A DNA stretch of 33,692 nt from Bacteroidia bacterium (GTDB taxonomy: Bacteria > Bacteroidota > Bacteroidia > Cytophagales > Cyclobacteriaceae), in assembly GCA_030425425.1 (NCBI GenBank), contig JAUIAO010000063.1, positions 1 through 33,692 on the forward strand, written 5' to 3'. A model generated the notes under the pieces. That model did no database searches. It had not been told where the DNA came from and saw only the letters and a list, made by a program, of their open reading frames with translations. Numbering within the stretch: the stretch's first letter is position 1; each line of letters starts with the position of its first letter. Made by a program: the position numbers and the translations under genes. Shown one piece after another: positions 365-33,692 of the stretch.

Positions 365-868
365 TTATCTGCGGTTTCTAAACTCTGGTCGATCTCTTCC
401 CATTCCGCCTCGTCCCGGGCCGAATCTCCTTCTTGCCATTTCTTCTACAATTTGATTGAACTCGGCTGCTTGCTCAGGAGTGCAGATAGATCTCACGTCT
501 TGAAAATGGACAAAGGTCAAACTGTCTTTTTGCCGCTGGAGTCTACCTATTTCTAACAAGATAGAATCAACAGGAATATTGTTCTCTGCGTCTGTTCCAT
601 CCACAAATAATTGAAGCCTGAGATTCTTTAACTCCGCTTCAATGGGCTTAATTTGAGCAAAATGATTATTCCTGAACACTTTGAGCTTTTCATGTTGAGT
701 TGGGCTAAACCCTACTCTTTGCCTCATGTATTTTTCTGGTGTAGGTCTTTTTGGAAGTTGATCTGGAATGATCCTTTCTTTCCAATAAAAACTTAAAGAA
801 AAGAGATTAATCAGAACCAGAATGCTTACTATAATTATCCAATATTTAGTTTTCATTTTATCATTCAT
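365..868 (-). CDS. Membrane-anchored Spy/CpxP-like LTXXQ protein
   Basis: 167 aa. Residues about 9-29 form one hydrophobic segment (signal anchor or uncleaved signal), so the rest should be periplasmic. The body is helical and charged. It carries two degenerate LTXXQ-type turns, FSPTQ at 54-58 and CTPEQ near 129, as in Spy/CpxP chaperones and the periplasmic heavy-metal-sensor family. The tail is rich in Arg and Gly (RRFGPGRGGMGR). It overlaps the upstream anti-sigma candidate by 8 bp and is the last gene of the cassette. By analogy with CpxP and Spy it could bind misfolded envelope protein or metal and feed back on the sigma factor; that is inference. The single Cys in the second motif is unusual and could be a redox or metal contact. 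Confidence 0.72.
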   Translation of the reverse strand: MNDKMKTKYWIIIVSILVLINLFSLSFYWKERIIPDQLPKRPTPEKYMRQRVGFSPTQHEKLKVFRNNHFAQIKPIEAELKNLRLQLFVDGTDAENNIPVDSILLEIGRLQRQKDSLTFVHFQDVRSICTPEQAAEFNQIVEEMARRRFGPGRGGMGRDRPEFRNRR

Positions 869-1154
869 TATAAGCTAAATCATAAAACTCTACATCCGAC
901 CCAAAATAGCCAGAGCTTAATACTTCTACAGGATCATTCGATTCTGAATCATTATCGGTGCTCATATAGGTCACTACATTTATGAGCACTAGCAGAGCAA
1001 AAGCCAACTTCCACATCAATTTTATTTCAGGCTGTGCACTCGATTGTTTAGCCATTAACCTTGAATAGAAATAAGGTCCGGAATCCGCTGGAGAGAGTCC
1101 ATTTATGCTCTCCATAGTCTTTTGAACTTCTTGATCTATATCTTTTTGCTTCAT
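861..1154 (-). CDS. Small single-pass membrane protein, candidate anti-sigma factor
   Basis: 97 aa: about 46 cytoplasmic residues, a transmembrane helix at roughly 47-65, and a short acidic outer tail. It overlaps the ECF sigma gene by the 4-bp ATGA junction, the usual arrangement for a translationally coupled anti-sigma factor. No HxxxCxxC zinc motif is present, so it is not a ZAS-type anti-sigma, and the cytoplasmic part is short. The assignment therefore rests on gene order and topology, not homology. An alternative is a membrane accessory protein that presents the adjacent LTXXQ proteins. Confidence 0.55.
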   Translation of the reverse strand: MKQKDIDQEVQKTMESINGLSPADSGPYFYSRLMAKQSSAQPEIKLMWKLAFALLVLINVVTYMSTDNDSESNDPVEVLSSGYFGSDVEFYDLAYNE

Positions 1155-1797: not shown

Positions 1798-2295
1798 TTA
1801 TTTACCTCTTCGTGGGCCATCTGGGTTTCTTCCACGATTTCCTTTGTTTTGAAATTGAGTATCCAGAAACAGTCTTTGTTCGTCATCCAATTGTTTTCTT
1901 ACGTCTTGATGGGCTATCGCTCTTCTCTTTGCTATACTAGCTTTTAGTTCAGAGATCTCATCAATAGTATTATTAATTGCTTTCATATCTGGTTTAGCAT
2001 CGGTTTGCAGAGTGGTGAGAGAAGCCTCTTTTTCATTGATCTCATTCCTGAGTGGCAGTATATCTTGTTGCGCGGCTACATGAATCGCTTTTAGATTATC
2101 TTTTTGCTCATCCGAAAGATTAGGAATGTTCATAAACATCCGTTCTCCACCTTGTTCATATCTTTTTCCTCTCGGTCCCTGTCCATTTCCCTGTCCATTT
2201 CCCGAGCCTCTTTGTCCTGGTTGTGCATAAGACAATATCGGCAATATCATTACTGCCAGAAACATGATAAAATGTTGAATTCTTGACTTTTTCAT
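1798..2295 (-). CDS. Secreted Spy/CpxP-like LTXXQ protein
   Basis: 165 aa with a clear signal peptide (KK, hydrophobic core, cleavage near SYA-QP at about residue 24). A Gly/Gln/Asn-rich linker follows, then a helical region with two LTXXQ-like motifs, LSDEQKDNL near 60 and LDDEQRLFL near 137. The C terminus is basic and Gly/Arg-rich (GNRGRNPDGPRRGK). This is the Spy/CpxP periplasmic chaperone or metal-sensor superfamily. It is the first gene of the sigma cassette, 56 bp upstream of the sigma gene, and is probably both its target and a modulator. The related gene at 365-868 differs in keeping a membrane anchor. Confidence 0.75.
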   Translation of the reverse strand: MKKSRIQHFIMFLAVMILPILSYAQPGQRGSGNGQGNGQGPRGKRYEQGGERMFMNIPNLSDEQKDNLKAIHVAAQQDILPLRNEINEKEASLTTLQTDAKPDMKAINNTIDEISELKASIAKRRAIAHQDVRKQLDDEQRLFLDTQFQNKGNRGRNPDGPRRGK

Positions 2296-2409
2296 ATTCT
2301 TAATTTTTTAATGATACCCTTTAGATGCCAATACTTTTAAAAACCTGCGCTGGGATCGAAAAAAAATCAAAAAATATTTTCAGTGTTCAATTTGTATTTA
2401 GATTCGCCT

Positions 2410-2892
2410 ATGGACAAACCTGCATTTGATGATATTTTCATGGAGTTGGCGGCCAATCTTGCCAAAAGAAGCCATTGTATAAAAAGGCATGTTGGTGCGG
2501 TGCTGACCAAGGAAACAAGAATTATATCTATTGGCTATAATGGGCCACCTGCCGGCACTCACAACTGCGATGATGAGTTTCCAGAAGAAGGCTGTCCCAG
2601 AGATTCTAAAGGTGGATGTTCGCTTGCGATCCATGCCGAGCAGAATGCCATTTTATATGCCGTGAAAAATAAAGCTACGGTAGAAGGATCTACATTGTAT
2701 GTTACGCTTTCTCCTTGTCTGGCATGTGCAAGAATCATTTATACAGCAGGAGTAGAGAAGGTGATTTATCTCAATTCATATGCTGAGCATAAAGGTATTG
2801 CTCTGGATGAAGGTGTTGAGTTTTTGAAGAAGTTTGGTGTTCAGGTCCAACGATATCATGGTACCATTGACCACTTGACACCACTTATTTGA
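2410..2892 (+). CDS. dCMP deaminase (ComEB-like cytidine/deoxycytidylate deaminase)
   Basis: 160 aa from ATG 2410. It deaminates dCMP to dUMP, feeding thymidylate synthesis in the cytosol. The zinc site is complete: HAE at about 75-77 supplies the His ligand and proton-shuttle Glu, and PCLAC supplies Cys103 and Cys106. IGYNGPPAGTHNCDD and GCPRDSKGGC are typical of the dCMP-deaminase subfamily. An in-frame GTG at 2383 would add nine residues, but the family normally begins close to MDKPAF, so ATG 2410 is preferred. The 3' end overlaps the convergent T9SS gene by 8 bp. Confidence 0.9.
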   Translation: MDKPAFDDIFMELAANLAKRSHCIKRHVGAVLTKETRIISIGYNGPPAGTHNCDDEFPEEGCPRDSKGGCSLAIHAEQNAILYAVKNKATVEGSTLYVTLSPCLACARIIYTAGVEKVIYLNSYAEHKGIALDEGVEFLKKFGVQVQRYHGTIDHLTPLI

Positions 2893-4630
2893 TAATCACC
2901 TTCAGGGTTTTAGCGGATTCTCCACTCATAATTCTGATAAAGTAATTACCAGGAGTTAGATTTTCCAATTCAATATGACTTGCTGATTCAAAATTTCCAG
3001 AGGAAATCAGAGTACCGTTTATATTATAAACATCCCAATAAGTTTCCTGAACAACTTCTGAAACATGAAGTGTTCGGGTATTTATCATAGGGTTTGGATA
3101 ACAACTTACGGATGAAAGATTAACGGATTCACCATTAAGGAGAATGGTTTTGAGTATTTCCACAGTTCCGTCAAAGTCAGTTTGTGACAATCGGTAGTAA
3201 GACTTGATCGAGGAATTTGAATCAAAAAATGTATACTGATTCGTGAGCTTGGTAGTCCCCGAACCTAGCACCTTTGCGATTTCTTTGAAATTATAACCAT
3301 CATTAGATTTCTCTAAAGTGAAAAAATCATTATTTAATTCAGATGCAGTTGACCATTGAAGTTTTACAGAATTATCAGATTTTTCGACCTCAAATGACAC
3401 CAAACTTACCGGCAAAGCTATAGGTGTGGTAACTGAACAATTTTGGGTGATCGTTGCACTACCTCCTGTATCATAGCTGCAGCTGCCTCCTGTTGTCACT
3501 TCTCCATAACCACTTATTTGATCACTTCCACCATCCAGATTAAGGTCCTCACCAACCACAAAGTCTGAATGAACCGTGTAGTTAGTAGTTCCTCCTCCAG
3601 CACTAAAGCTTCCTGTAACAACAGTGGTACCGGAATTGACGGTCATGGTAGTACCTTGTCCAAGACTCACATCCCCATCAATCGTGGCATCTCCATTAAA
3701 GGTAAGTGAAGTATTGTTACCGCCGGATATACCGCCTAGTTCAAAAGCACCACCTCCGTTACCTGTGAAAATTGCTCCATTCCCCACGTCCACTACACCT
3801 TCTATGATCAAGTCATCATTGGCCGTGAAGCTCGCGTTATTTCCAGCATTAGCACCACCATAAATATGGACAACAGATCCGCCATTAGAGACAATATCCA
3901 AGTCATTGTTGCTATCCACTGTTCCAATTACATCTATGGTGCCGCTATTTCCCGTTAAAGTAATATCTCCGGAAGAAGTACTTACATCACCATCAATTGT
4001 CACTGTTCCAGTTCCGTTTTTGGTAACTGTAATGTCGTTTTTAGCCGTTATACCGCCAAAGTCTCTATCTCCATTCCCATTTAATTGCATAGTAACACCT
4101 CCTGATGCAGATGCGAGCCCACCACTTATACTAAAATCTTCATCTCCATTTGTGGTGATCGAAACGGCATTTTTACCACTAGCAGTTCCTGTCACTGTCA
4201 TTGTACCTCCATTGGTGACAGATAAAGTTCCCTGGGACGAAATGTTTCCATTTACTGTGAGGGTAGCACCACTATTAACGACAATGGTTAAATCACTATT
4301 TGACGTGAAATCTCCGTTTATCACCAAATTTGCTCCACTCCAAAGTGTAACTGTACTCGATTTTGTAAAGGCAATTCCTGTAAGAGTCAGATTGATACTT
4401 CCGTTAACAAATGTCGTTAGATTATTGACTGAAGAGGCTACATCGTCACCATCGACAGGGATATTACCCCCTTGCCAAATAGAGCTATTAACCCATTGAC
4501 CACCGCTAGTTCTAATAGTCCTGGTCGCTGCAAATGTATTACTGATGTAGAAGGTAAAAAGTATTATGGTCAAGATTAAAACCTTGCAGAACTTTCTTTT
4601 TCCTTTTAATATATAACCGGGGCTAATCAT
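2885..4630 (-). CDS. T9SS-exported repeat protein with C-terminal sorting domain
   Basis: 581 aa. Residues about 1-34 form a signal peptide with a basic N-region, hydrophobic stretch and NTFA cleavage. Residues about 40-400 are Gly/Asn/Thr/Ser-rich short beta repeats (VNG, TVNG, IDGDV patterns), resembling a right-handed beta-solenoid. A beta-sandwich segment follows from about 405 (PVSLVSFEVEKSDNSVKLQW). The end is a type A T9SS sorting domain with CYPNP and the closing GNYFIRIMSGESAKTLKVIIK pattern. It is predicted to cross the outer membrane via PorU-type T9SS machinery and be surface-attached or released. Ligand or enzymatic activity cannot be read from sequence; adhesin or matrix protein is an inference. 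The gene is monocistronic and converges with the dCMP deaminase gene. Confidence 0.8.
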   Translation of the reverse strand: MISPGYILKGKRKFCKVLILTIILFTFYISNTFAATRTIRTSGGQWVNSSIWQGGNIPVDGDDVASSVNNLTTFVNGSINLTLTGIAFTKSSTVTLWSGANLVINGDFTSNSDLTIVVNSGATLTVNGNISSQGTLSVTNGGTMTVTGTASGKNAVSITTNGDEDFSISGGLASASGGVTMQLNGNGDRDFGGITAKNDITVTKNGTGTVTIDGDVSTSSGDITLTGNSGTIDVIGTVDSNNDLDIVSNGGSVVHIYGGANAGNNASFTANDDLIIEGVVDVGNGAIFTGNGGGAFELGGISGGNNTSLTFNGDATIDGDVSLGQGTTMTVNSGTTVVTGSFSAGGGTTNYTVHSDFVVGEDLNLDGGSDQISGYGEVTTGGSCSYDTGGSATITQNCSVTTPIALPVSLVSFEVEKSDNSVKLQWSTASELNNDFFTLEKSNDGYNFKEIAKVLGSGTTKLTNQYTFFDSNSSIKSYYRLSQTDFDGTVEILKTILLNGESVNLSSVSCYPNPMINTRTLHVSEVVQETYWDVYNINGTLISSGNFESASHIELENLTPGNYFIRIMSGESAKTLKVIIK

Positions 4631-4958
4631 ACCATTAATTGCTAACAGACTTGAATTTACAAAATTAATTGAGAGTAGAGCTGTAAAATGAAATTTATTC
4701 TATGAATAGTTCAATAAACACGTTAGATATACGAGAATTCACTTTCGTTGGATGTGCTATCTATTGCATAAACCTATAATCGCTTCTAATGAGCCATATA
4801 GGCTATTTTTCACCATATAAAAAGACTGACTACAAACTCTTAATCCAAAAATCCTTTTCTCACTACCAATTATCGATTTCGCATATCCAATCATCTAATT
4901 GATCTCTGTTCACCATGTAGGCCAACCTACTTTTGGATCAACAAAAAACCAAATAACA
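4631..4958. other. Divergent intergenic region between T9SS gene and receiver operon
   Basis: 328 bp, AT-rich, without a supported gene. It must hold promoters for both flanking transcription units. A small hairpin, GTAGG-CCAA-CCTAC (4917-4930) followed by TTTT, lies in the leader 28 nt before the receiver start. A second weak one, AGCC/GGCT, is near 4793-4805. A TTG at 4899 opens the receiver frame earlier, but the extra 20 residues look non-coding. Confidence 0.5.
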
Positions 4959-5345
4959 ATGAAAAAGCAACTTTTAATCATCGACGATAATCCCATGATG
5001 GGTGGTTTTCTGACTCAGCTTTTTGGAAAGCAATACGACACTCAGTGGTGCTCTAATGCAGAAGAGGCACTGGGTTGGCTACTCAAAAAGAATATGCCTG
5101 ACCTGATCATTTCAGATTACAACCTTACAGGAATGTCCGGACTAGATTTCCTGAATCAATTAAGAAACTCCGGATTTTACCTTGATATACCAGTGGTCAT
5201 GTTGTCAGGTGATTCTAAAAGCGATAAGCGAATAGAATGCCTAAAATCAGGAGCTAGTGATTTTGTGATGAAACCTTTTAACCCAACAGAATTGGAATTG
5301 AAAGTAGATAAACTCATCGAAACTCAACTTTCAGAAACCGCCTAA
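4959..5345 (+). CDS. Stand-alone response-regulator receiver (CheY-like)
   Basis: 128 aa consisting of a single REC domain with no output domain. Acidic pair D9/D10, phosphoacceptor D53 (IISDYNLTGMSG), S83 in MLSG and K104 in MKPFNP are all present, so it should be phosphorylatable and fold as an active receiver. ATG 4959 gives MKKQLLIIDD, the normal receiver start. No kinase lies in the window. It is 11 bp upstream of, and co-oriented with, a sugar transferase that carries a degenerate receiver. Control of surface polysaccharide synthesis by protein-protein contact is therefore plausible but inferred. Confidence 0.9.
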   Translation: MKKQLLIIDDNPMMGGFLTQLFGKQYDTQWCSNAEEALGWLLKKNMPDLIISDYNLTGMSGLDFLNQLRNSGFYLDIPVVMLSGDSKSDKRIECLKSGASDFVMKPFNPTELELKVDKLIETQLSETA

Positions 5346-5356
5346 TATATAATGCC

Positions 5357-6472
5357 ATGAAAGAACTATTCGTCATTCGTCTTCCACACCTAGAAACAGC
5401 TTTACAAAGTGAAGGTTTTAAAACCTACTACTTTGAATCAGTGGAAAGAGCTTGCTTGGCTCTCTATAAAAGAAAAGAGACCGGAGGAAGGTTACCACAA
5501 GCCGTTCTTTCTTTGGCAGAAAACACTGATTCTTATATCCATCTGATTGATTTTGTCAAAAAGTATCAATCAAAAATTCATGTGATTCCTTTCACATTTC
5601 AAAAAAATAAAGGAGTCATGCAGAAAGCTCATGAGCATGGAGCTTCTGACTATTTCAATGACTCTATGAACCTGGAGCAAATTACAACTCGTCTCAAAGA
5701 ATTGGATAATTGGAGGCAATATGAGAATACCACCAAGAAATATAAGGAGTGTAAAATTCCGACCTGGAAAAGAACTTTCGATATGATGGTGGCTGGAACG
5801 CTACTACTCATACTTTCTCCTTTGTTTCTGTTTGTATCACTTGCCATCAAATTATCTTCAAAAGGCCCGGTTTTTTACTCTTCGCCCAGAGTAGGCACGG
5901 GATATAAGATTTTTCCATTTTACAAATTCAGATCTATGCGTGTGAATGCAGATAAGATGTTGGGAGACATGAAACATCTTAATCACTATGCACAGGCTAA
6001 CAAGGATATTGAAATTCCGGTAATAAAGGATGGACCATTGCTGATAGGTGATGATACCATGATCACGGAATCAGAATTTGAACACAAGAGAAAGCAAGAA
6101 GAAAAAGAAGCTTTTGTGAAAATCCAAAACGATCCCAGAATCACGAAAATTGGTCATTTCATTAGAAAAACAAGTATTGATGAATTACCTCAATTGGTCA
6201 ATGTATTGCTAGGTCACATGTCAATAGTTGGGAACAGGCCACTTCCACTATATGAAGCAGAAAAGTTGACCACTGATCAATGGACCAGGAGATTCATGGC
6301 ACCAGCAGGAATCACAGGGCTATGGCAAGTCACCGAAAGGGGAAAAGCCAGCACTTCTGAAGATAGTAGAAAGCAATTGGATATAGAATATGCTGAGAAA
6401 TTTTCTCTCTGGATGGATCTGAAAATCCTTTTCAAAACACCACTTGCAGCTATCCAACAAGAAAAAGTTTAA
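5357..6472 (+). CDS. Sugar-phosphate transferase with N-terminal pseudo-receiver
   Basis: 371 aa. Residues about 136-371 are a bacterial sugar transferase (PF02397; WcaJ/WbaP/PglC type), which moves a sugar-1-phosphate onto undecaprenyl phosphate at the inner membrane. Visible marks are KRTFDMMVAG, a membrane helix at about 142-165, FYKFRSM near 188-194, IDELPQLVNVLLG and GNRPLPLYE near 274-300, and GITGLWQV near 318-325. Residues 200-250 are a longer charged insert. Residues about 1-118 resemble a receiver fold (HGASDYF followed by a helix). The expected phosphoacceptor position reads LSLAENTD and the conserved KP is gone, so it is a degenerate receiver. It is probably the initiating enzyme for an exopolysaccharide or surface glycan and the partner of the receiver encoded just upstream. 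Confidence 0.85.
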   Translation: MKELFVIRLPHLETALQSEGFKTYYFESVERACLALYKRKETGGRLPQAVLSLAENTDSYIHLIDFVKKYQSKIHVIPFTFQKNKGVMQKAHEHGASDYFNDSMNLEQITTRLKELDNWRQYENTTKKYKECKIPTWKRTFDMMVAGTLLLILSPLFLFVSLAIKLSSKGPVFYSSPRVGTGYKIFPFYKFRSMRVNADKMLGDMKHLNHYAQANKDIEIPVIKDGPLLIGDDTMITESEFEHKRKQEEKEAFVKIQNDPRITKIGHFIRKTSIDELPQLVNVLLGHMSIVGNRPLPLYEAEKLTTDQWTRRFMAPAGITGLWQVTERGKASTSEDSRKQLDIEYAEKFSLWMDLKILFKTPLAAIQQEKV

Positions 6473-24608: not shown

Positions 24609-25223
24609 ATGGACAAATTTGTTGTATCCGTTGCTGATGCTTCACACAAACAATATGCTAATGATATTGTAGAACTCATTGCTGATAGTGCAGCAAAACG
24701 AGGAACTGGTATCGCGCGTAGGTCACCTGAATATATAGAAACCAAAATCAATGATGGGAAGGCTATCATAGCCTTTACTAAATCTGGGAAACTTGCTGGA
24801 TTTTGCTATATAGAAACCTGGGGTGGAGGTAAATATCTCGCCAATTCTGGATTGGTAGTTCATCCTGATTTTAGAAATCATGGTTTAGCAGCAGCTATCA
24901 AAACCCGAGCTTTTAAACTATCCAGAGACAAATACCCTGAGGCCAAGTTATTTGGCCTTACCACCAGTATGGCCGTGATGAAAATCAACTCTGATTTAGG
25001 CTATCGTCCGGTGGCTTTTTCCGAACTTACTGACGATACGGAATTCTGGAAGGGCTGCTCCAGCTGTGTTAATTATGACATTCTGACCCGAAAAGATCAT
25101 AAAATGTGCTTGTGTACCGGCATGCTCTACGACCCGGAGGAGAAAAAGCGACAATGGAAGAACAGGAGTAAAAGAGTACAGGAAAAAATCTTGAAATGGA
25201 AACAAAAAGTGCAAATCAAATGA
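24609..25223 (+). CDS. GNAT acyltransferase, probable ArgA-type glutamate N-acyltransferase
   Basis: 204 aa. The GNAT fold occupies about 5-135, with the acyl-CoA pyrophosphate loop VVHPDFRNHGLAAAIKTR (84-100). It heads the arginine cluster and is coupled to argG by the 4-bp ATGA overlap at 25220, so it is the best candidate for the first step, N-acylation of glutamate. Acetyl versus succinyl donor is open. After the GNAT core a tail carries four cysteines as CxxC and CxC (C150, C153, C167, C169), followed by a Lys/Arg-rich helix. The Cys set could bind a metal or act as a redox switch and is not part of the minimal GNAT fold. Confidence 0.78.
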   Translation: MDKFVVSVADASHKQYANDIVELIADSAAKRGTGIARRSPEYIETKINDGKAIIAFTKSGKLAGFCYIETWGGGKYLANSGLVVHPDFRNHGLAAAIKTRAFKLSRDKYPEAKLFGLTTSMAVMKINSDLGYRPVAFSELTDDTEFWKGCSSCVNYDILTRKDHKMCLCTGMLYDPEEKKRQWKNRSKRVQEKILKWKQKVQIK

Positions 25224-26416
25224 GTCAGAAAAAAGTGTTGTTGGCCTTTAGTGGTGGACTGGATACTACTTATTGTACCCTATACCTTGAGCAACTCGGT
25301 TATGAAATCCATACGGTAACAGTGAATACAGGTGGCTTTTCTTTAGCAGAGTTGGAGAAATTAGCCAATAGATCCGCAGAACTCGGAGCGGTATCACATA
25401 AGAATGTAGATGTGACGGAAGAGTTCTATCAGAAGTGTATCAAATATTTGATTGCTGGGAATGTATTGAAAAATAATACATATCCACTTTCTGTGAGTGC
25501 GGAACGGGCCTTTCAGGCAAAAGCAATAGCGGAGGTGGCGATTGCCCTTGATGTAGAAGCCATAGCGCATGGAAGCACCGGAGCTGGAAATGATCAAGTA
25601 AGGTTCGACATGATATTCAATATCATGTGTCCGGAAAAGGAAATCATCACACCAATTAGAGATAACAAACTATCGCGTGAAGAAGAAATCCAATTTCTGA
25701 TTGAAAATGGTGTGAGCGGAAACTGGGAGAAATCACTTTATTCGATCAATCAAGGACTTTGGGGAACATCTGTCGGAGGAAAAGAAACATTGACTTCTGA
25801 TCAATATTTACCGGATGAGGCGTTCCCAAGTCAATTGAAAAAGGATGGTTCTGAAGTAGTTGAAATTATATTTGAAAAAGGTGAGCCTGTTGGGTTGAAT
25901 GGAGAGGCTCTGACTTCTGTACAGACTATAGAAAAACTTAATGAGATCGCTAACCAGTATGCTATTGGTAGAGATATTCATGTAGGCGACACAGTGATTG
26001 GCATCAAGGGACGCGTGGGTTTTGAAGCAGCTGCTCCGGTCATATTGATCAAAGCACATCATACACTTGAAAAGCATACGCTCACTAAAAACCAGTTATT
26101 GATCAAAGACCAATTGTCATTGACTTACGGAAACCTTCTCCATGAAGGGCATTATCTCGATCCGGTAATGCGCGATTTAGAGTCTTTTTATGACAACACT
26201 CAGCAATATGTGACTGGTGTGGTGAAAGTAAGATTGGCGCCATACCGATTCTACGTGGAAGGGATCACTTCTGAGCACGATTTGATGCAATCCTCTTTCG
26301 GAAAATATGGCGAGATGAACAATTCATGGTCAGGTGATGACGTGAAAGGGTTCTCTAAGATTTTTGGAAATCAAAATATGATTCATCACAAAGTACATCA
26401 AGGGAGCAATGGGTAA
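25220..26416 (+). CDS. argG: Argininosuccinate synthase
   Basis: 398 aa. It joins citrulline and aspartate with ATP to argininosuccinate. The PP-loop SGGLDTT is at 11-17. Further family segments are AHGSTGAGNDQVRFD, SINQGLWGTSVGGKE and the C-terminal SGDDVKGFSKIFGNQN. ATG 25220 is chosen because it forms a 4-bp ATGA overlap with the acyltransferase stop and puts the PP-loop at the normal distance. An upstream ATG at 25196 would add eight residues. In a Bacteroidota pathway the citrulline it uses is released by the deacylase encoded downstream. Confidence 0.94.
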   Translation: MSQKKVLLAFSGGLDTTYCTLYLEQLGYEIHTVTVNTGGFSLAELEKLANRSAELGAVSHKNVDVTEEFYQKCIKYLIAGNVLKNNTYPLSVSAERAFQAKAIAEVAIALDVEAIAHGSTGAGNDQVRFDMIFNIMCPEKEIITPIRDNKLSREEEIQFLIENGVSGNWEKSLYSINQGLWGTSVGGKETLTSDQYLPDEAFPSQLKKDGSEVVEIIFEKGEPVGLNGEALTSVQTIEKLNEIANQYAIGRDIHVGDTVIGIKGRVGFEAAAPVILIKAHHTLEKHTLTKNQLLIKDQLSLTYGNLLHEGHYLDPVMRDLESFYDNTQQYVTGVVKVRLAPYRFYVEGITSEHDLMQSSFGKYGEMNNSWSGDDVKGFSKIFGNQNMIHHKVHQGSNG

Positions 26417-27380
26417 ACTAAGAGTAGGAATATACGGGGCGGCAGGTTACACAGCTGGAGAATTGATTCGTATTCTGCTGAATCACCCAAATGCTGAGAT
26501 TGTGTGTGCGCAAAGTGAAAGTCAGGCTGGTAAACAGGTGACAGAAACGCATACAGACCTGATTGGAGAGACTAACCTTACTTTTGAAAAGGAACTGAAT
26601 TTTGACGAATTAGATGTTCTTTTTATGTGTAAAGGCCACGGAGAATCTAAAGTTTACCTTCAACAAACTAACATTCCTTCTCAAGTCAAGATCATCGATT
26701 TGAGTAACGATTTCAGGTTGAAGGCTGATGCGGATGGATTTGTTTATGGACTTCCAGAGGTTTTCAGATCAGAAACACAAAACACTTCAAAAGTGGCTAA
26801 TCCGGGTTGTTTTGCTACTTGTATTCAGGTTGGCTTACTTCCTGCTGCAAAAGCTCGAGTGATCCAGTCTGAAGTTCATACAAGTGCGATTACGGGTTCT
26901 ACAGGTGCTGGTCAGAAACTGTCGCCAACTTCTCATTTTTCCTGGAGAAACAATAACATGAGCGTATACAAAGCTTTGACGCATCAACACTTAGGGGAAA
27001 TCGGTGAGACGCTCGAAACACTGGCAGGTGAGATGATCGAATTAAACTTCATTCCTTACAGAGGCAACTTCACCAGAGGAATCATTGCTACTTCTTATTT
27101 CAATTGTGATTTGAGCTTGGAGGAAGCATACAAACTGTATGAAGACTATTTTGCTGATCAGGCCTTTACGTTTGTTGCTAGAAAGAATCCTGATTTGAAA
27201 ATGGTGGTGAATACTAACAAAGCAGTTGTGCACCTTCAGAAAGAGGGAAACAAACTCATAGTGATTTCAATGATAGATAATCTGCTGAAAGGTGCTTCAG
27301 GTCAGGCTGTTCATAATATGAACCTGATGTTCGGACTTAATGAAAAGGCAGGATTGAATTTAAAACCCGGAGGGTTTTAG
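26409..27380 (+). CDS. argC: N-acyl-gamma-glutamyl-phosphate reductase
   Basis: 323 aa. NADPH-dependent reduction of N-acylglutamyl phosphate to the semialdehyde. The Rossmann motif GIYGAAGYTAGELIR is at 7-21 and the catalytic Cys is C134 in NPGCFAT. The segment STGAGQKLSPTSHF follows, and the C-terminal KGASGQAVHNMNLMFG is the family hallmark. The start overlaps argG by 8 bp. The length equals the short Bacteroidota ArgC. After it the operon is interrupted by an AT-rich orphan gene before proC. Confidence 0.93.
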   Translation: MGKLRVGIYGAAGYTAGELIRILLNHPNAEIVCAQSESQAGKQVTETHTDLIGETNLTFEKELNFDELDVLFMCKGHGESKVYLQQTNIPSQVKIIDLSNDFRLKADADGFVYGLPEVFRSETQNTSKVANPGCFATCIQVGLLPAAKARVIQSEVHTSAITGSTGAGQKLSPTSHFSWRNNNMSVYKALTHQHLGEIGETLETLAGEMIELNFIPYRGNFTRGIIATSYFNCDLSLEEAYKLYEDYFADQAFTFVARKNPDLKMVVNTNKAVVHLQKEGNKLIVISMIDNLLKGASGQAVHNMNLMFGLNEKAGLNLKPGGF

Positions 27381-27383
27381 AAT

Positions 27384-27414
27384 TGGTTAATAGTTAATTA
27401 GTTATTGGTTGATT
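27384..27414. repeat. GTTATTGGTTAAT-type intergenic repeat, copy A
   Basis: A run of overlapping GGTTAATAGTTAATTAGTTATTGG-type units sits directly after argC. ATTAGTTATTGGTTGATTT here is nearly identical to ATTAGTTATTAGTTGATTG after proC (copy B). The TTG start of the orphan gene lies inside it. Confidence 0.6.
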
Positions 27415-27836
27415 TGGAGAACTATATCTATATATCGGAAGACTTAATTTCAATTAATAAACAAGTTGTAATCGAAGAGGACAAGTATTCTATTTGGGCT
27501 TATGTAGTTGATAAGGTCGAAAATAAAATAGTTTTGGATTGTTTTTTATGTACCAGGGGAACACAAATTTTAAATTCCTCAAAAGTTCAGGAATTCATAA
27601 ATCAAGGGTTTGCACCTCCATTAAGTAAAATGTATTCAAATAGTTTTTCAATTATTGAAGATTTGGCAGAAGAGGATATTAAAATTAATTACGATGAAGG
27701 TTTAATTAGACTAAATATCAAAGACATTGAATATGCAATCTTGGATTTGAAAAACAAAAAATCATATTCAAAGTCAATATCTAATTCAGGACCATATGGT
27801 CATGAATTAAATGGTTACTATAACTCAATAACCTAA
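27405..27836 (+). CDS. AT-rich orphan protein inserted in the arginine operon
   Basis: 143 aa, unrecognised. It reads as alternating beta strands (YIYISEDLISI, YSIWAYVVDKVENKIVLDCFL, IEYAILDL) with a central PPLSKMYSN turn and no signal or membrane segment. It could be a small single-domain protein such as an immunity- or Imm-like fold, but no motif supports that. Codon and base use are visibly more AT-rich than argC and proC. The only starts are TTG at 27405 (in repeat A) or 27414. Repeat units flank it on both sides, so it looks like a later insertion between argC and proC. Confidence 0.55.
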   Translation: MVDLENYIYISEDLISINKQVVIEEDKYSIWAYVVDKVENKIVLDCFLCTRGTQILNSSKVQEFINQGFAPPLSKMYSNSFSIIEDLAEEDIKINYDEGLIRLNIKDIEYAILDLKNKKSYSKSISNSGPYGHELNGYYNSIT

Positions 27837-27847
27837 TAACGAGTAAC
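27818..27847. repeat. Inverted-orientation repeat units after the orphan gene
   Basis: AACTCAATAACCTAATAACG reads on the minus strand as GTTATTAGGTTATTGAGTT, the same unit type as copies A and B but inverted. It spans the orphan's stop codon, so the orphan gene lies between oppositely oriented repeat units. Confidence 0.45.
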
Positions 27848-27856
27848 AAATCAAGG

Positions 27857-28663
27857 ATGGATTATTTAGATAATAACATAGCGATACTAGGAGCAGGAAA
27901 CCTTGGGATTTCCATAGCTAAGGGAATCGTTCATCAAGGGATTAAAAAAGCCGAGGAAGTTTACCTCACTCGCAGAACACTTGAATTAGTTAACTATCTG
28001 GAAAAGGATGGTTTTCAGCTGACGAAAGACAATTCAGAAGCAGTTGCTAATTCAGGGATTGTTCTGCTGTGCGTGCAGCCAAAGCAGTTGGCAAAGCTCA
28101 TGGAGCAGATCAATCCGGTGCTTTCTGAGCAACATATTTTGGTTTCGGTCATCACAGGAGTTCCCATTGAGGAGATCAAAAGCCATCTGCAAAAAGACAT
28201 TCCTGTAGTAAGAGCTATGCCGAATACTGCAATTGCCATTGGCGAATCGATGACTTGCATCAGCTGTAATGATAGTCCAGATTATGCCGTCATGATTCAG
28301 AAGATTTTTAATTCGGTAGGACGAACTTTGATCATCGATGATAAGCTCATGCAGGCGGCTACTGTGCTTGGTGCAAGTGGTATAGCGTTTTTCTTAAGAT
28401 TCTTAAGAGCAGCTACCCAGGGAGGAGTGCAGATGGGTTTTCATAGCGACGAAGCTCAGCTAATTGCAGTACAAGCTGCAAAAGGAGCTTCTTCTTTGAT
28501 TCTTGAGAATAAACAACACCCGGAAGTAGAGATCGACAAAGTGACCACTCCGATGGGGTGTACCATTTCTGGTTTGAATGAAATGGAGCACCAGGGATTG
28601 AGCTCAGCTTTGATCCGCGGACTTATGGCCTCCTATGAGAAGATTGCGAATATTAAGAAGTAG
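27857..28663 (+). CDS. proC: Pyrroline-5-carboxylate reductase
   Basis: 268 aa. It reduces P5C to proline with NAD(P)H. The Rossmann motif ILGAGNLGISIAKG is at 10-23. Middle marks are CVQPKQL and VRAMPNTAIAIGESMT, with the C-terminal P5CR dimerisation signature AATVLGASGIAFFLRFL and VTTPMGCTISGLNEME. Placement within an arginine operon is common in Bacteroidota and links proline and arginine formation from glutamate. Its stop codon begins repeat copy B. Confidence 0.93.
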   Translation: MDYLDNNIAILGAGNLGISIAKGIVHQGIKKAEEVYLTRRTLELVNYLEKDGFQLTKDNSEAVANSGIVLLCVQPKQLAKLMEQINPVLSEQHILVSVITGVPIEEIKSHLQKDIPVVRAMPNTAIAIGESMTCISCNDSPDYAVMIQKIFNSVGRTLIIDDKLMQAATVLGASGIAFFLRFLRAATQGGVQMGFHSDEAQLIAVQAAKGASSLILENKQHPEVEIDKVTTPMGCTISGLNEMEHQGLSSALIRGLMASYEKIANIKK

Positions 28664-28705
28664 TTATTGGTTAATTAGTGTCTGGTTATTAGTTATTAGT
28701 TGATT
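28661..28705. repeat. GTTATTGGTTAAT-type intergenic repeat, copy B
   Basis: Starting in the proC stop codon, the sequence runs through TAGTTATTGGTTAATTAG, GGTTATTAG and TTATTAGTTGATTG units. It is the second direct copy of the repeat seen after argC and is typical of degenerate AT-rich intergenic tracts in Bacteroidota. Confidence 0.55.
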
Positions 28706-28755
28706 GAAAACTGGATTAATTTCCTGAATATCAGAATTTTGAATTATTTATTGAA

Positions 28756-29697
28756 ATGAAAAACTTTACTTCAGTAGCGGATGTAGCAGATGTGAAAGCA
28801 TTGATTAAAAGCGGACTTTCACTAAAGCAAAACCCTTACGCACATAAATCACTTGGTCAAAATAAGACCATAGGTTTATTATTTTTCAACTCCAGTCTGA
28901 GAACGAGAATGAGCACTCAAAAGGCCGCTGCAAACCTTGGAATGGATGTTATGGTAATGAATGTGACTCAGGATTCCTGGCAGATAGAAATGGAAGATGG
29001 TGTGGTCATGAATGGCGGTACTGCCGAACACATTCGTGAAGCGGCAGCAGTTTTGGGAACTTATTGTGAAATACTAGGAGTGCGGTCTTTTCCATCGCTG
29101 AAGGATAGAGAAAAGGATTATCAGGATCATATCATCAGGGCATTTATGCAGCACGCAGGTGTGCCTATAGTAAGCTTAGAATCAGCCACACTACACCCAC
29201 TACAGTCATTGGCAGATATGATTACGATCACTGAGCTAAAGCAAGTGGCCAGACCAAAGGTAGTCATGACCTGGGCACCACATGTGAGAGCTTTGCCACA
29301 AGCAGTTCCGAATTCGTTTGCACAATGGATGCCACACATAGATGCAGATTTCACCATCGTACAGCCTAAGGGTTTTGAACTGAATGAAGAATTTTCTAAC
29401 GGGGCTCAAATCATGCATGATCAGGAAGCGGCTTTTGAAGGAGCAGACTTTATCTATGTAAAGAATTGGTCTTCTTATCAGAATTATGGTGAAATCGGAA
29501 CTGATCAGAGCTGGGTGGTGAATCAGGATAAATTGAAAAATACGAATGCTGCAAAAGTGATGCATTGCCTTCCGGTGAGAAGAAATGTGGTCATTGCAGA
29601 TGATGTTTTAGATTCTGATTCTTCTCTTGTAATCCAGCAAGCAGGCAACCGGGTATATAGTGCTCAGGCTGTTTTAAAAGCAATTTTGGAGCATTAA
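28756..29697 (+). CDS. argF': N-acylornithine carbamoyltransferase (AOTCase/SOTCase)
   Basis: 313 aa. It transfers carbamoyl phosphate to N-acylornithine, giving N-acylcitrulline. The carbamoyl-phosphate site reads FFNSSLRTRMST (43-54) instead of the STRTR of ordinary OTCases, with HPLQSLADM and MHCLPVRRN completing it. The proline-rich TWAPHVRALPQAVPNSF segment is specific to this family. Residue 90, which is Pro in the B. fragilis succinylornithine enzyme and Glu (92) in the Xanthomonas acetylornithine enzyme, is Ala here (GGTAEHIREA). Absence of Glu leans toward succinylornithine, but that is inference. About 90 bp of repeats separate it from proC. Confidence 0.93.
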   Translation: MKNFTSVADVADVKALIKSGLSLKQNPYAHKSLGQNKTIGLLFFNSSLRTRMSTQKAAANLGMDVMVMNVTQDSWQIEMEDGVVMNGGTAEHIREAAAVLGTYCEILGVRSFPSLKDREKDYQDHIIRAFMQHAGVPIVSLESATLHPLQSLADMITITELKQVARPKVVMTWAPHVRALPQAVPNSFAQWMPHIDADFTIVQPKGFELNEEFSNGAQIMHDQEAAFEGADFIYVKNWSSYQNYGEIGTDQSWVVNQDKLKNTNAAKVMHCLPVRRNVVIADDVLDSDSSLVIQQAGNRVYSAQAVLKAILEH

Positions 29698-29709
29698 TTG
29701 ATATTTAGG

Positions 29710-29876
29710 TATGATCACTATAGTTTGGCTTGGAGGTGAACAGCGAGACCGAAATGGCTAAATTGCGCTGGGAGGCTCGCTGCACCGCGAGGTGGATAAG
29801 TGGGCTTGGCCAATGGGAGGGTAGTGTGATACTGAAAAAACAACCGATGGCTCTACAAATGGAGTTGACTATTTAA
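29710..29876 (+). other. GC-rich structured element between argF' and argB
   Basis: The roughly 200-bp gap between argF' and argB holds a block with clearly higher GC than its surroundings. Pairings include CAGCGAG (29741-29747) with CTCGCTG (29776-29782), CACC-GCGA-GGTG (29783-29794, a GNRA tetraloop), the palindrome TTGGCCAA (29806-29813), and near-complementary ends around 29711-29720 and 29821-29832. It also contains a 40-codon frame, ATG 29754 to TAA 29874 (MAKLRWEARCTARW...), without a recognisable domain. It may be a structured RNA, a mobile-element remnant or a small peptide gene; nothing decides between them. Confidence 0.4.
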
Positions 29877-29896
29877 GAATAATTACGAACAGAATT

Positions 29897-30676
29897 ATGA
29901 GTAAAGAACAACTAAGTGTAATCAAAATAGGCGGAGCTGTGATAGAAGACCCTGAAAAGAAAGCAGCATTCATAGAGGGTTTTTTGGCAGTGGAAGGAAA
30001 GAAAATTTTGATACATGGTGGCGGTAGAGTAGCAACAGAAATCGGTAATAAACTGGGCATCAAAGCCAATATGGTGGATGGTAGGCGTGTGACAGATGAT
30101 GATACGATAGATCTGGTGACGATGGTTTATGGAGGGCTGGTAAACAAGCAAATGGTAGCCGAACTGCAAGGCAAAAACGCGAATGCTATTGGTTTGACTG
30201 GAGCAGATGCTTCCATTATCACTTCAGTGAAACGCCCGGTAAGAGATGGTGTGGATTATGGATGGGTTGGTGACCCGGTTAAAGTAAATGATGCGTTTTT
30301 AGCTGATATTCTTACCGCAGGAGCCGTACCTGTAGTTGCGCCGCTTACTCATGATGGTAAGGGCCATATTTTCAATACCAATGCAGATACCATGGCTGGA
30401 ACGGTAGCTTTGGCAATGGCTGAGCGATATGATGTCAACCTCATGCTGACTTTTGAGCTGGAGGGGGTGATGAAAGATGTAGATGACCCTGATTCTCTGA
30501 TTACGGAATTCAAAGAGCCATTTTTTAAAGAAATGAAAGCTTCTGGAGCTATTCATAGCGGTATGATTCCTAAATTAGAAAACTCTTTTGAGGCACTTCA
30601 TAATGGAGTAAAAACCGTGAGAATTTGTAAATACGACCAAATACATACCACAAATGGCAGCTTCCTTCAGATATAA
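29897..30676 (+). CDS. argB: N-acetylglutamate (N-acylglutamate) kinase
   Basis: 259 aa. Phosphorylates the gamma-carboxylate of N-acylglutamate with ATP. Amino-acid-kinase motifs are KIGGAVIEDPEK at the start, ILIHGGG near 35-41, MVDGRRVTDDDT near 55-66, and the NTNADTMAGTVALAMAER substrate/ATP region near 156-173. IHSGMIPKLENSFEA is the conserved C-terminal lid. The protein lacks the N-terminal helix linked to arginine feedback inhibition in hexameric NAGKs, so it may be feedback-insensitive. It overlaps the deacylase gene by 23 bp. Confidence 0.93.
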   Translation: MSKEQLSVIKIGGAVIEDPEKKAAFIEGFLAVEGKKILIHGGGRVATEIGNKLGIKANMVDGRRVTDDDTIDLVTMVYGGLVNKQMVAELQGKNANAIGLTGADASIITSVKRPVRDGVDYGWVGDPVKVNDAFLADILTAGAVPVVAPLTHDGKGHIFNTNADTMAGTVALAMAERYDVNLMLTFELEGVMKDVDDPDSLITEFKEPFFKEMKASGAIHSGMIPKLENSFEALHNGVKTVRICKYDQIHTTNGSFLQI

Positions 30677-31736
30677 CACCGATCAGCTCCACAACGAAGC
30701 TGTCACTCTGCTAAAACGTCTCATTGAAACGCCCAGCGTGAGCAGGGATGAGGAGAAAACAGCCGATGTTATTCAAGTATATTTTGAAGATCATGATGTG
30801 AATGTAGAGCGCAAAGGCAACAATGTATGGGTGAAAAACCTTCATTTTGATGCAGACAAGCCTACCATTCTACTCAATTCCCACCATGACACAGTGAAGC
30901 CTAATGCAGGTTATACGAATGACCCTTTTGAGCCTATAGAAAAAGAAGGTAAGCTCTATGGGCTTGGCAGCAATGACGCTGGAGCTTCTTTGGTTTCTCT
31001 GATAATGACCTTTCTATATTTCTATAATACACATGATATTAAATACAACCTCATTTTGGCCGCTACAGCAGAAGAAGAAATCTCTGGTGCAGGAGGAGTG
31101 AGAAGTATTTTGAGAGAGATCGGTGAAGTGGATTTTGGAATAGTAGGTGAACCTACACAAATGGCCATGGCTATCCATGAAAAAGGACTCATGGTCTTGG
31201 ATTGCCTGGTAAAAGGAAGAGCAGGACATGCTGCCAGAAATGAAGGGGAAAATGCCATCTATAAAGCTATGGGTGTCATAGAGTGGTTTAAGACTTTCGA
31301 ATTCCCTGAAAAATCTAAAACACTTGGACCTATCAAAATGTCGGTGACAATGATAGAGTCGGGCACTCAGCACAATGTGGTACCAGATACCTGTAAATTG
31401 GTGGTGGACGTTCGAACAACAGATGCATACACTAATGAAGAAACGCTAGAAATCATCCGTCAGAATGTGGACTGTGAAGTGGAGGAGCGTTCAACGAGAT
31501 TACAACCTTCCCGAATTACCGACGATCATGTCATAGTACAAGCTGCTAAGGCCTTGGATACCGAAACTTTTGGCTCCCCAACTATGTCTGATCAGGCACT
31601 GATGCCTTTCCCAACGGTGAAAATCGGTCCTGGCGATTCAAACAGATCTCACATGCCCGATGAATATGTGTTCGTGGATGAAATTCGTGAAGGCATCATG
31701 GGTTATCTGATGTTATTAAATAAAGTAATTCACTGA
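30654..31736 (+). CDS. argE: M20-family deacylase, probable N-acyl-citrulline/ornithine deacetylase
   Basis: 360 aa zinc peptidase-fold enzyme of the ArgE/DapE group. Metal and catalytic residues are visible: H77 and D79 (NSHHDT), D108 (GSNDAG), Glu cluster 140-142 (AEEEISG), E166 (GEPT), and a late His in NRSHMPDEY. A dimerisation domain lies between about 180 and 290 (KGLMVLDCLVKGRAGHAARNEGENA, given as a pattern). In this N-acylated pathway it should remove the acyl group from N-acylcitrulline, since argF' acts on acylornithine. It overlaps argB by 23 bp and precedes argH, fitting that position. The gene symbol is by role; true DapE activity is an alternative. Confidence 0.85.
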   Translation: MAASFRYNTDQLHNEAVTLLKRLIETPSVSRDEEKTADVIQVYFEDHDVNVERKGNNVWVKNLHFDADKPTILLNSHHDTVKPNAGYTNDPFEPIEKEGKLYGLGSNDAGASLVSLIMTFLYFYNTHDIKYNLILAATAEEEISGAGGVRSILREIGEVDFGIVGEPTQMAMAIHEKGLMVLDCLVKGRAGHAARNEGENAIYKAMGVIEWFKTFEFPEKSKTLGPIKMSVTMIESGTQHNVVPDTCKLVVDVRTTDAYTNEETLEIIRQNVDCEVEERSTRLQPSRITDDHVIVQAAKALDTETFGSPTMSDQALMPFPTVKIGPGDSNRSHMPDEYVFVDEIREGIMGYLMLLNKVIH

Positions 31737-31754
31737 GCGATAGGCGAATAGCTA

Positions 31755-31768
31755 AAAGCGTAAAGCGT
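31755..31768. repeat. Tandem AAAGCGT heptamer before argH
   Basis: AAAGCGT occurs twice in tandem (31755-31761, 31762-31768), followed by AAAAC and the argH ATG at 31774. It fills most of the short argE-argH gap and might affect translation initiation or be a degenerate intergenic repeat. Confidence 0.5.
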
Positions 31769-31773
31769 AAAAC

Positions 31774-33105
31774 ATGAAACTTTGGCAAAAATCAACAGAC
31801 GTCAATAAACGAGTAGAAACATTCACCATAGGAAACGATCAGGCATTGGATCTTTTATTGGCACCTTATGATGTGTTGGGATCGTTGGCACATATCACTA
31901 TGCTGGAGAGCATTGGGCTTTTGACAGCTGATGAGTTGGTAATTCTGACCAAAGAGCTGAAAGCGCTATACCAAAAAGCCAAAAACAATGAACTGACCAT
32001 CGATGAAGGAATAGAGGATATTCACTCGCAGGTAGAGTTGTTGTTGACACAGAAGCTTGGGGATGTTGGTAAGAAAATACACAGTGGTCGATCAAGAAAC
32101 GATCAGGTTTTGGTGGATTTGAAAATGTACTTCCGTGCGGAGATAGAAGCTTTAGTTGGTCAGGTCGAGGAATTGGCTCAGACACTTCTGAAGCAAAGTG
32201 AAGCTTACAAACACGTCTTGATTCCAGGTTATACACACATGCAGGTGGCCATGCCAAATTCTATTGGGATGTGGTTGGGAGCGTATGCGGAGAGTCTTTC
32301 GGATGACTTGATTGCGCTCAGAGCCGCTTATGACATCATCAATAAAAACCCGCTCGGTTCAGCTGCTGGTTATGGTTCGTCTTTTCCATTGGACAGAATG
32401 AAGACTACTGAGTTGTTAGGTTTTGAAGAGCCGAATTACAATGTGGTGTATGCTCAAATGACGCGCGGTAAGTCCGAAGTTGCTTTGGCCAATGCGATGG
32501 CTTCAGTGGCTGCTACATTGAGCAAGTTTTCGATGGACGTTTGCATGTATGCCGGTCAGAATTTTGGATTCATTTCTTTCCCAGATGAGTTGACAACCGG
32601 TTCGAGCATTATGCCGCACAAGAAAAATCCTGATGTGTTCGAATTGGTAAGAGGTCGCTGCAATCAGTTGGTGGCTTTGCCAAATGAATTGCAATTGATT
32701 CTGAGCAATCTGCCAAGCGGGTATCATAGAGAGCTACAGCAGTTGAAAGAGCATCTTTTCCCGGGCATTCAAACTTTAAAGCAATGTCTGGACATTGTGG
32801 AGTTTAGCATCAGTCAGATAAAAGTGAATGAAGATGTCATCAATGATCCGCGATATGATTATTTGTTCACCGTAGAATTGGTCAATCAACTGGTGCTGGA
32901 CGGTATGCCTTTCAGAGATGCTTATAAGGAAGTGGGAAGACAAGTAGAATCAGGAGATTACAAGTCAGACCGAAACATCAATCACACACATTTAGGAAGT
33001 GTTGGTAATTTGGCCAATGATCATATTGCTGCCAAAATCAAAAGAGAAGTGGCTAAGTTTTCTTTCGAGAAAGTAGCGGAGTGTTTTAAGGTGTTGGGGG
33101 AATAG
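31774..33105 (+). CDS. argH: Argininosuccinate lyase
   Basis: 443 aa. It cleaves argininosuccinate to arginine and fumarate, the last step of the cluster. Fumarase/lyase superfamily motifs are EDIHSQVE and GKIHSGRSRNDQV near the N terminus, PGYTHMQVAMP in the middle, and the signature TTGSSIMPHKKNPDVFE at about 274-290 with the catalytic Ser pair at 277-278. It is shorter than the E. coli enzyme (457 aa) but complete. The 158-aa membrane gene starts 6 bp after its stop and may be co-transcribed. Confidence 0.95.
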   Translation: MKLWQKSTDVNKRVETFTIGNDQALDLLLAPYDVLGSLAHITMLESIGLLTADELVILTKELKALYQKAKNNELTIDEGIEDIHSQVELLLTQKLGDVGKKIHSGRSRNDQVLVDLKMYFRAEIEALVGQVEELAQTLLKQSEAYKHVLIPGYTHMQVAMPNSIGMWLGAYAESLSDDLIALRAAYDIINKNPLGSAAGYGSSFPLDRMKTTELLGFEEPNYNVVYAQMTRGKSEVALANAMASVAATLSKFSMDVCMYAGQNFGFISFPDELTTGSSIMPHKKNPDVFELVRGRCNQLVALPNELQLILSNLPSGYHRELQQLKEHLFPGIQTLKQCLDIVEFSISQIKVNEDVINDPRYDYLFTVELVNQLVLDGMPFRDAYKEVGRQVESGDYKSDRNINHTHLGSVGNLANDHIAAKIKREVAKFSFEKVAECFKVLGE

Positions 33106-33111
33106 AGCCTC

Positions 33112-33588
33112 ATGAAACTGAATGAAAGTACTGAAATTTTCTTTGAATCTAAGATTAAGTGGAGCAGTGTAATAATTCCATTTTTTACCTTTTTGATTCT
33201 TACCTTGTTTCTTCCTAAATACTATTGGATCTATGGTGCAATAGTTTCGACAACTTATTTATTGATTACTCTTATCCGAACGAAGAAAATGCAAATCACT
33301 TCGGATCGGCTAATTGTAACATATCCTTTCTTTCCAAATGGAAGAAACTACTTCATCCGAATAAACAAGGTTAAGTCAATTACTTATGTTGATCACTCTT
33401 TGAGTAAGTCTGACAGAACACATATCAATATCCACAAAAAAGGCAATTTAAAACCGTCCAAAATTGATCACTATTTAAGTGATGAGGAGTATAATCGATT
33501 CGAAAGAGCAGTGAAGAATTTAGGAATTGAATTCAAGTACACCAACCATTCTGAAGATATTGTAAAATCGAGTAGGAAACAAAGATAG
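33112..33588 (+). CDS. Two-helix membrane protein, 3' end replaced by intron sequence
   Basis: 158 aa. It has a short charged N terminus, two membrane helices (about 18-35 and 38-55), then a beta-rich PH-like segment (MQITSDRLIVTYPFF, RNYFIRINKVKSITYVD) and an amphipathic helix (SDEEYNRFERAVKNLGIEF). This is the bacterial PH-domain (YdbS/DUF-type) topology also suggested for the frameshifted gene at 23751. The first 151 codons are native. From the third base of codon 152 (33567) the frame runs into the group II intron, so the last six residues (SSRKQR) and the TAG come from intron domain VI. Function unknown. Confidence 0.68.
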   Translation: MKLNESTEIFFESKIKWSSVIIPFFTFLILTLFLPKYYWIYGAIVSTTYLLITLIRTKKMQITSDRLIVTYPFFPNGRNYFIRINKVKSITYVDHSLSKSDRTHINIHKKGNLKPSKIDHYLSDEEYNRFERAVKNLGIEFKYTNHSEDIVKSSRKQR

Positions 33589-33617
33589 GTGATCAAACCT
33601 ATCTTTGTTGTCCTCTC
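33570..33617 (-). ncRNA. Group II intron domain VI with bulged branch-point A
   Basis: The basal helix GAGAGG/CCT-A-CTC encloses a long perfect stem, AACAAAGATAGG (33578-33589 on plus) with CCTATCTTTGTT (33598-33609) and a T-A closing pair. The unpaired A in CCTACTC (plus 33573) is the predicted branch point, 7 nt from the 3' splice site. Without the domain V context this hairpin would be mistaken for an operon terminator. Confidence 0.75.
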
Positions 33618-33618
33618 A

Positions 33619-33651
33619 CACCACCCAGCGTACTCTCGTACTGGGCGGTTT
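33619..33651 (-). ncRNA. Group II intron catalytic domain V
   Basis: The plus strand shows CCACCCAG (33621-33628), CG bulge (33629-33630), TAC, TCTC loop (GAGA on minus), GTA and CTGGGCGG (33641-33648). On the minus strand this is a domain V hairpin with CGC catalytic triad and CG bulge, as in IIC introns. The compensatory 8-bp helix with a G-U wobble argues that the RNA structure is maintained. Confidence 0.82.
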
Positions 33652-33692
33652 CTCTAAAGACATGTCGATAGTAGTCAGTGGGTAGTTTAAGT

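Follow-up and report, generated by a model that had tools for sequence, protein, structure and literature searches.

The closest described systems are the group IIC introns, known representatives of which are Oceanobacillus iheyensis O.i.I1, Geobacillus GsI-IIC and Thermoanaerobacter italicus Ta.it.I1. Class C introns need their own protein for branching (PMC7161350), and bacterial class C introns are described as inserting at terminators (PMC8919778).

The DNA analysed here, referred to as the window, is a stretch of 33,692 nucleotides that makes up contig C9, one of the 121 contigs in the 5.85 Mb draft genome of a marine member of the Bacteroidota whose genus is taken, from its congeners, to be Marinoscillum. 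Its right edge almost certainly carries the 3′ end of a mobile retroelement, a group IIC intron. The element is like O.i.I1, GsI-IIC and Ta.it.I1 in the design of domains V and VI; its subfamily shares with them, at the readable 5′ junctions, the GTGYG start and the site just after terminator-like hairpins, and the reverse transcriptase (RT)/maturase of a related intron (genome G190) is closest to the GsI-IIC RT. The subfamily spans three species, comprising the introns of the window genome, of Marinoscillum furvescens DSM 4134 (G001) and of a metagenome-assembled genome of Marinoscillum sp. MSM7 (G005). Unlike the known group IIC introns, these Marinoscillum copies carry a tract of 9-14 T in a domain I loop, with a hairpin before the tract. 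In other respects the intron is an ordinary member of group IIC, of a known kind, that has multiplied recently.

Domains V and VI at the right edge of the window

The initial annotation placed the 3′ end of a group IIC-type intron at 33567-33692 on the minus strand, with an intact domain V (CGC triad, CG bulge and GNRA loop) and a domain VI whose bulged A lies seven nucleotides from a CGAT end. The interval is correct for the part that lies within the window, the element running on past the contig end. The coordinates and motifs of domain V check out, and the placement of the bulged A is borne out by the sequence, the fold and the covariation of domain VI. The features are as follows.

33567..33692, minus strand: 3′ terminal 126 nt of the group IIC intron, clipped by the contig end at 33692; 12 genomic copies, Rfam RF00029
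33620..33649, minus strand: domain V, from sequence and fold; 12/12 pairs kept in 7/7 aligned copies
33647-33645, 33637-33634 and 33630-33629, minus strand: domain V motifs, respectively the CGC triad, the GAGA tetraloop and the CG bulge
33570..33617, minus strand: domain VI, a long hairpin, from the fold; 6/19 pairs double-changed among relatives
33567, minus strand: 3′ splice site; the last intron base is T33567 (...CTCGAT) and the 3′ exon begins with the T at 33566

The bulged A of domain VI is base 33573, seven nucleotides from the 3′ end, and the terminal AT occupies 33568-33567. The 89-nt piece that spans both domains folds at -44.3 kcal/mol, compared with -19.9 +/- 3.1 kcal/mol for shuffled versions (z -7.9), and none of 200 shuffles was as good. 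The minimum-energy fold shifts the bulge of domain V two bases from the canonical position, and the pair counts given here use the canonical bulge. In an alignment of seven copies from five genomes the pairing of the two domains is present in 96.8% of cells, falling to 40-50% when the partner is slid by one to three columns. Six of the 19 pairs of domain VI are altered on both sides among these copies, against a mean of 3.4 after column shuffling (6 or more in 16 of 500 shuffles). One pair of domain VI forms in a single copy of the seven. Further pair types, one of five measures applied to the alignment, number 6 and do not exceed the shuffles (9.1); the 12 pairs of domain V are invariant in the seven copies, so that this domain gives no covariation information.

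At gathering thresholds, Rfam returned no match in the whole window. Below them, RF00029 (Intron_gpII) matches 33579-33650 on the minus strand with 28.9 bits (E 7e-4 in a 393-base search; gathering threshold 40), and the covariance-model match predicted earlier for 33570-33651 is thus present, weakly, beneath the cut-off.

The intron end is repeated and breaks the assembly

The 3′ end and its multiplicity can be read directly from the assembly. It is present at 12 places in the window genome, all of which run to contig ends, and the 11 copies outside the window add up to 1147 nt (29 to 126 nt each, one copy giving 29 nt) with 0 mismatches to the window sequence. The boundary is equally direct: at 33567/33566 all 12 copies diverge, and the flanks are unrelated beyond this point apart from the first T, which is the first 3′ exon base in 12/12 copies. 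The window contig ends at 33692 because the intron is a repeat and the assembly broke at each copy; the element accounts for where this and other contigs of the assembly stop.

The 5′ ends were located with a full-length homologue from G005 as a DNA query, which gave 25 matches in the window genome, namely 12 5′-end places, the 3′ ends and domain V of another intron. Eleven of the 5′-end places are of full type. Each of these reaches a contig end or stops no more than 5 nt short of one, and they are mutually identical outside the T tract over the assembled 96-165 nt; the remaining one is a truncated relic on contig C55. For the middle of the intron (about 1.6 kb, positions 134-1782 of the G005 query) the DNA search found no match among the 121 contigs, and the 5′ and 3′ ends in the window genome are therefore linked only by homology to G005. 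The relic (locus L074, about 261-393, plus strand) is an intron 5′ part that is cut after about 130 nt and lies beside 5S rRNA-like sequence. The G005 copy sits in the same kind of place, as Rfam marks a 5S gene beside it.

The absence of a single mismatch among 12 3′ ends in the window genome supports the earlier description of the element as recent, and on this sequence evidence the intron appears to have reached its dozen or so genomic sites in recent times. A different reading is that the window holds a truncated, dead 3′ remnant, in which domains V and VI alone were left at the site, much as a 5′ part was left on C55. Truncation does occur in this subfamily, both at C55 and in G005, where a match on contig C41 is limited to the last ~47 nt of the intron, but the window sequence equals 11 other 3′ ends, has no internal break up to the contig edge and keeps the RT frame, and 11 full-type 5′ ends are available to pair with the 12 3′ ends. 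We consider a dead remnant very unlikely. The preferred reading is that of a mobile intron whose window copy is probably full length and situated behind a terminator, probably encodes an intact RT and, as far as its sequence allows a judgement, may splice and move today.

The reverse transcriptase reaches into the window

The RT had been expected to lie just outside the window. Its last 30 codons can in fact be read directly inside it, where they overlap domain V; the remainder, which would lie beyond the contig end, was not found in the assembly.

33599..33691, minus strand (codons 33691-33602): C-terminal 30 codons and stop of the RT/maturase (LKLPTDYYRHVFRETAQYESTLGGVRGQQR, then stop), which run across domain V into the first bases of domain VI

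The frame was assigned by likeness to the G005 copy and to the two copies in M. furvescens (G001), whose RT runs into the same frame. In the window, domain V can be read through in a second frame as well, and that frame resembles the end of the RTs of related introns in G190 and G148, genomes of one genus (g47) in the same family. This likeness arises because domain V is conserved, and the frame was therefore taken from the nearer relatives, G005 and G001. The passage of the RT frame over domain V was considered as a novelty and rejected, since in G190 and G148 too the RT ORF passes through domain V; annotated class C RTs likewise have a frame that overlaps this domain.

The complete homologue on contig C107 of G005 (L032 8525-6600, minus strand) is 1926 nt long from 5′ GTGCG to 3′ CTCGAT, its start being placed from the alignment, and it is the sole full-length close relative. 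It matches RF02001 (group-II-D1D4-3) with 118.6 bits. The RT frame of this copy is broken into two pieces, one ORF of 203 residues and another of 271, in which RVT_1 and GIIM domains are found. Unbroken RTs of 482 and 501 residues are present in the related introns of G190 and G148. The G190 RT is 54% identical to the 271-residue piece from G005, matches TIGR04416 above the cut-off and has the GsI-IIC RT (6ar1) as its best match among solved structures, with an E value of 1.2e-111. The introns of G190 and G148 are like the G005 copy in sequence, with 84-85% identity over the last ~90 nt; unlike the subfamily, they have an apparent GTTTG start in place of GTGYG and a loop without a T tract. The loci L114, L115 and L116 show this apparent GTTTG start rather than GTGYG, directly after host terminator-like hairpins.

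Insertion behind terminator-like hairpins

At all 15 readable 5′ junctions of the subfamily, in three species, a predicted hairpin is followed by a T-rich stretch and then by GTGCG or GTGTG. The junctions comprise the 11 full-type ends and the relic in the window genome, two in M. furvescens and one in G005. In the window genome the terminator-adjacent GTGYG ends are seen directly, GTGCG being present at 11/11 full-type 5′ ends and at the C55 relic. In seven of the 11 copies the intron is preceded, at a distance of no more than 310 nt, by the end of a co-directional ORF of 90 codons or longer; in three the closest ORF of this length lies on the opposite strand, and one flank is mostly N (C43, locus L141, 4027 of 4373 bases).

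In an element of this kind, the intron RNA would fold around domain V and its splicing would be aided by the intron's own RT/maturase. The RNA-protein complex would then reverse-splice into DNA sites that immediately follow intrinsic transcription terminators, and the RT would copy the reverse-spliced intron.

The assignment to group IIC made in the initial annotation gains support from the GTGYG 5′ ends after terminator-like hairpins, from the RF02001 match and the RVT_1 and GIIM domains of the G005 homologue and from the proximity of the G190 RT to that of GsI-IIC. Domains V and VI are insufficient to fix the class, and for the window copy the assignment rests on relatives, which leaves some room for a group II intron from a different class (IIB or class D/E), placed near terminators by chance. 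Chance is hard to reconcile with a hairpin and T-rich tract before every one of the 15 readable junctions, and with the RF02001 match in G005 and a G190 RT that is nearest the GsI-IIC RT among solved structures; we regard membership of another class as highly improbable. That the sequence is some other repeat with a strong hairpin, such as an insertion sequence end, a REP-like element or a plain terminator, has a negligible chance of being correct, for although domain VI by itself is a strong hairpin, insertion sequences break contigs too and the Rfam score is under gathering, the domain V motif, the domain VI covariation, the linkage of RF02001 and RT in G005 and the GTGYG 5′ ends all speak against it. 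A group IIC intron is the reading adopted here.

Genomic surroundings of the window copy

The window copy faces a convergent arginine operon, so placed that the 3′ exon of the intron lies antisense to an EbsA-like ORF and argH.

33112..33566, plus strand: genomic part of the EbsA-like ORF, convergent with the intron; PF17255 with 26.2 bits, cut-off 25.9

By translation this ORF spans 33112-33588 on the plus strand, its last codons and stop being supplied by intron DNA. Genes for an acetyltransferase, argG, argC-like, proC-like, argF-like, a kinase, an M20 peptidase and argH occupy 24609-33105 on the plus strand and abut the intron. Among the arginine/proline genes, a 143-residue ORF with a TTG start (27405-27836) had no Pfam match.

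argH was found in 5/5 congeners, with 4.3 to 8.8 kb of adjacent DNA in each. Beside it, in these five genomes, we found neither the EbsA-like protein (tblastn, E 1e-3; the G005 stretch stops at a contig end) nor the ORFs of the 11 5′ flanks (E 1e-10; 10 usable, C43 being mostly N). The C7 flank has a similar gene in genome G004 (70% identity), which is followed there by a hairpin and T's without an intron; the 12 3′ flanks gave nothing better than E 0.012 for the downstream side of this G004 site. In the same search for empty sites the C59 flank matched a multi-copy gene. Neither the argH neighbourhoods of the five congeners nor the C7 flank showed an empty site for the window copy or revealed which of the 5′ exons belongs to it.

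A poly-T tract in the domain I loop of the Marinoscillum copies

The first small hairpin has a sequence like GGGTGCAAGTCCC in ordinary class C introns of the order. The Marinoscillum copies differ in the loop of this hairpin, which holds an insert with a poly-T tract that starts at intron position 37-44. The tract measures 9 T in six of the 11 full-type copies of the window genome, 13 T in one and 14 T in four, counts that are subject to the misjudgement of homopolymer length to which draft assemblies may be prone; the relic has 6 T, the M. furvescens copies have 9 and 10 and the G005 copy has 10. Elsewhere, neither the remaining 33.6 kb of the window nor the 42.8 kb of 5′ flanks (N's excluded) contained a run of nine or more A or T.

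A T run of at least 8 in the same 5′ region was found in none of 41 other introns of the order, in which the longest run was 6. These comprise 28 of the 30 loci listed among 106 matches in 54 of 390 genomes, and 13 more; they include two other introns of Marinoscillum genomes, L036 and L170, and L114 and L115 are copies within one genome. L163 and L181 were left out (contig ends), as were L126 and L127 (no 5′ end) and L121 (which repeats L157). For L177 the 5′ end was set too far in, and its whole segment is without a run of 5 T. A scan for the T-tract pattern across 84,980 species, with one genome for each, gave six loci, three of which are introns of the Marinoscillum subfamily; GGTG, 8 T and AAGTCCYGARC are the fixed parts of the pattern, and the window genome's own records may be absent from the set. 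Another locus, L154, is an apparent intron relic whose T's belong to the host terminator, and the remaining two look like chance.

A hairpin stands directly before the T tract in all three species, with a different make in M. furvescens, and the minimum-energy folds of 4/4 typed 5′ ends contain it. Folded alone, the piece gives -7.0, -8.9 and -10.6 kcal/mol, and in a simple scan it comes up as terminator-like. The upstream host hairpins are stronger, with 60-nt folds that range from -15.6 to -25.5 kcal/mol, some of them including a second hairpin. Shuffled upstream sequence equals the pre-tract hairpin in 7, 9 and 0 of 300 cases, in three relatives that are not independent tests. Of the three pairs in the domain I helix, the outer one has changed from species to species, with G-C in G005 and M. 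furvescens but A-T in the window genome, so that the ribozyme helix still seems to be maintained.

The leading functional idea for the poly-T hairpin, possible but unproven, is a built-in terminator or attenuator. The hairpin would take the G's that pair with CC in the domain I helix, so that the nascent RNA would either terminate or fold into the ribozyme, and such an attenuator would limit both the expression of the element and read-through into its neighbours. Copies made through RNA would inherit slippage in the T tract, which could explain the presence of 9, 13 and 14 T among otherwise identical copies. We hold this proposal as a whole, an intrinsic terminator in domain I that competes with the helix G's as an attenuator of element and read-through, with T slippage passed on by RNA copying, to be tentative and rather doubtful. 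The tract is more probably neutral or mildly regulatory, and the sober alternative is neutral growth of the loop with slippage. The competition is claimed for the GG of the GGG/CCC helix only; a further competitor of the terminator hairpin, a CTC-GAG stem, was dropped, as it is not visible in all relatives.

In the open-licence literature, judged by titles and the starts of abstracts, we found no description of a terminator inside a group II intron, and open-licence papers likewise yielded nothing on group II introns in Marinoscillum or on such introns with an intrinsic terminator in Bacteroidetes. If the poly-T hairpin works as a terminator, it would give a retroelement whose sites are behind terminators a simple means of throttling itself, and the variation in T length would be a record of RNA-mediated copying. 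It is the sole point of the intron worth an experiment.

Other introns and reverse transcriptases

A second, divergent group II intron is present in the window genome (L036, G000:C10, about 1808-3694, plus strand; RF02001 with 78.2 bits). Its RT/maturase is unbroken, with 388 residues and RVT_1 and GIIM domains, and is 40% identical to the G190 RT. In G261, a short class C-like intron (L120, about 663-1030, plus strand) measures about 370 nt from its 5′ end to the end of domain VI, a length that leaves no room for an RT. A search of the 121 contigs of the window genome with the RVT_1 family found three RTs, none of which belongs to the copies of the window intron. Two loci of this genome encode anti-phage RTs of the Drt2 kind, L040 at 3984-5486 on the minus strand (G000:C119; PADLOC Drt2 E 2.4e-132) and L041 at 2772-4364 on the minus strand (G000:C73; PADLOC Drt2 E 7.3e-138), which score 362 and 357 bits, respectively, against an NCBIfam cut-off of 390.
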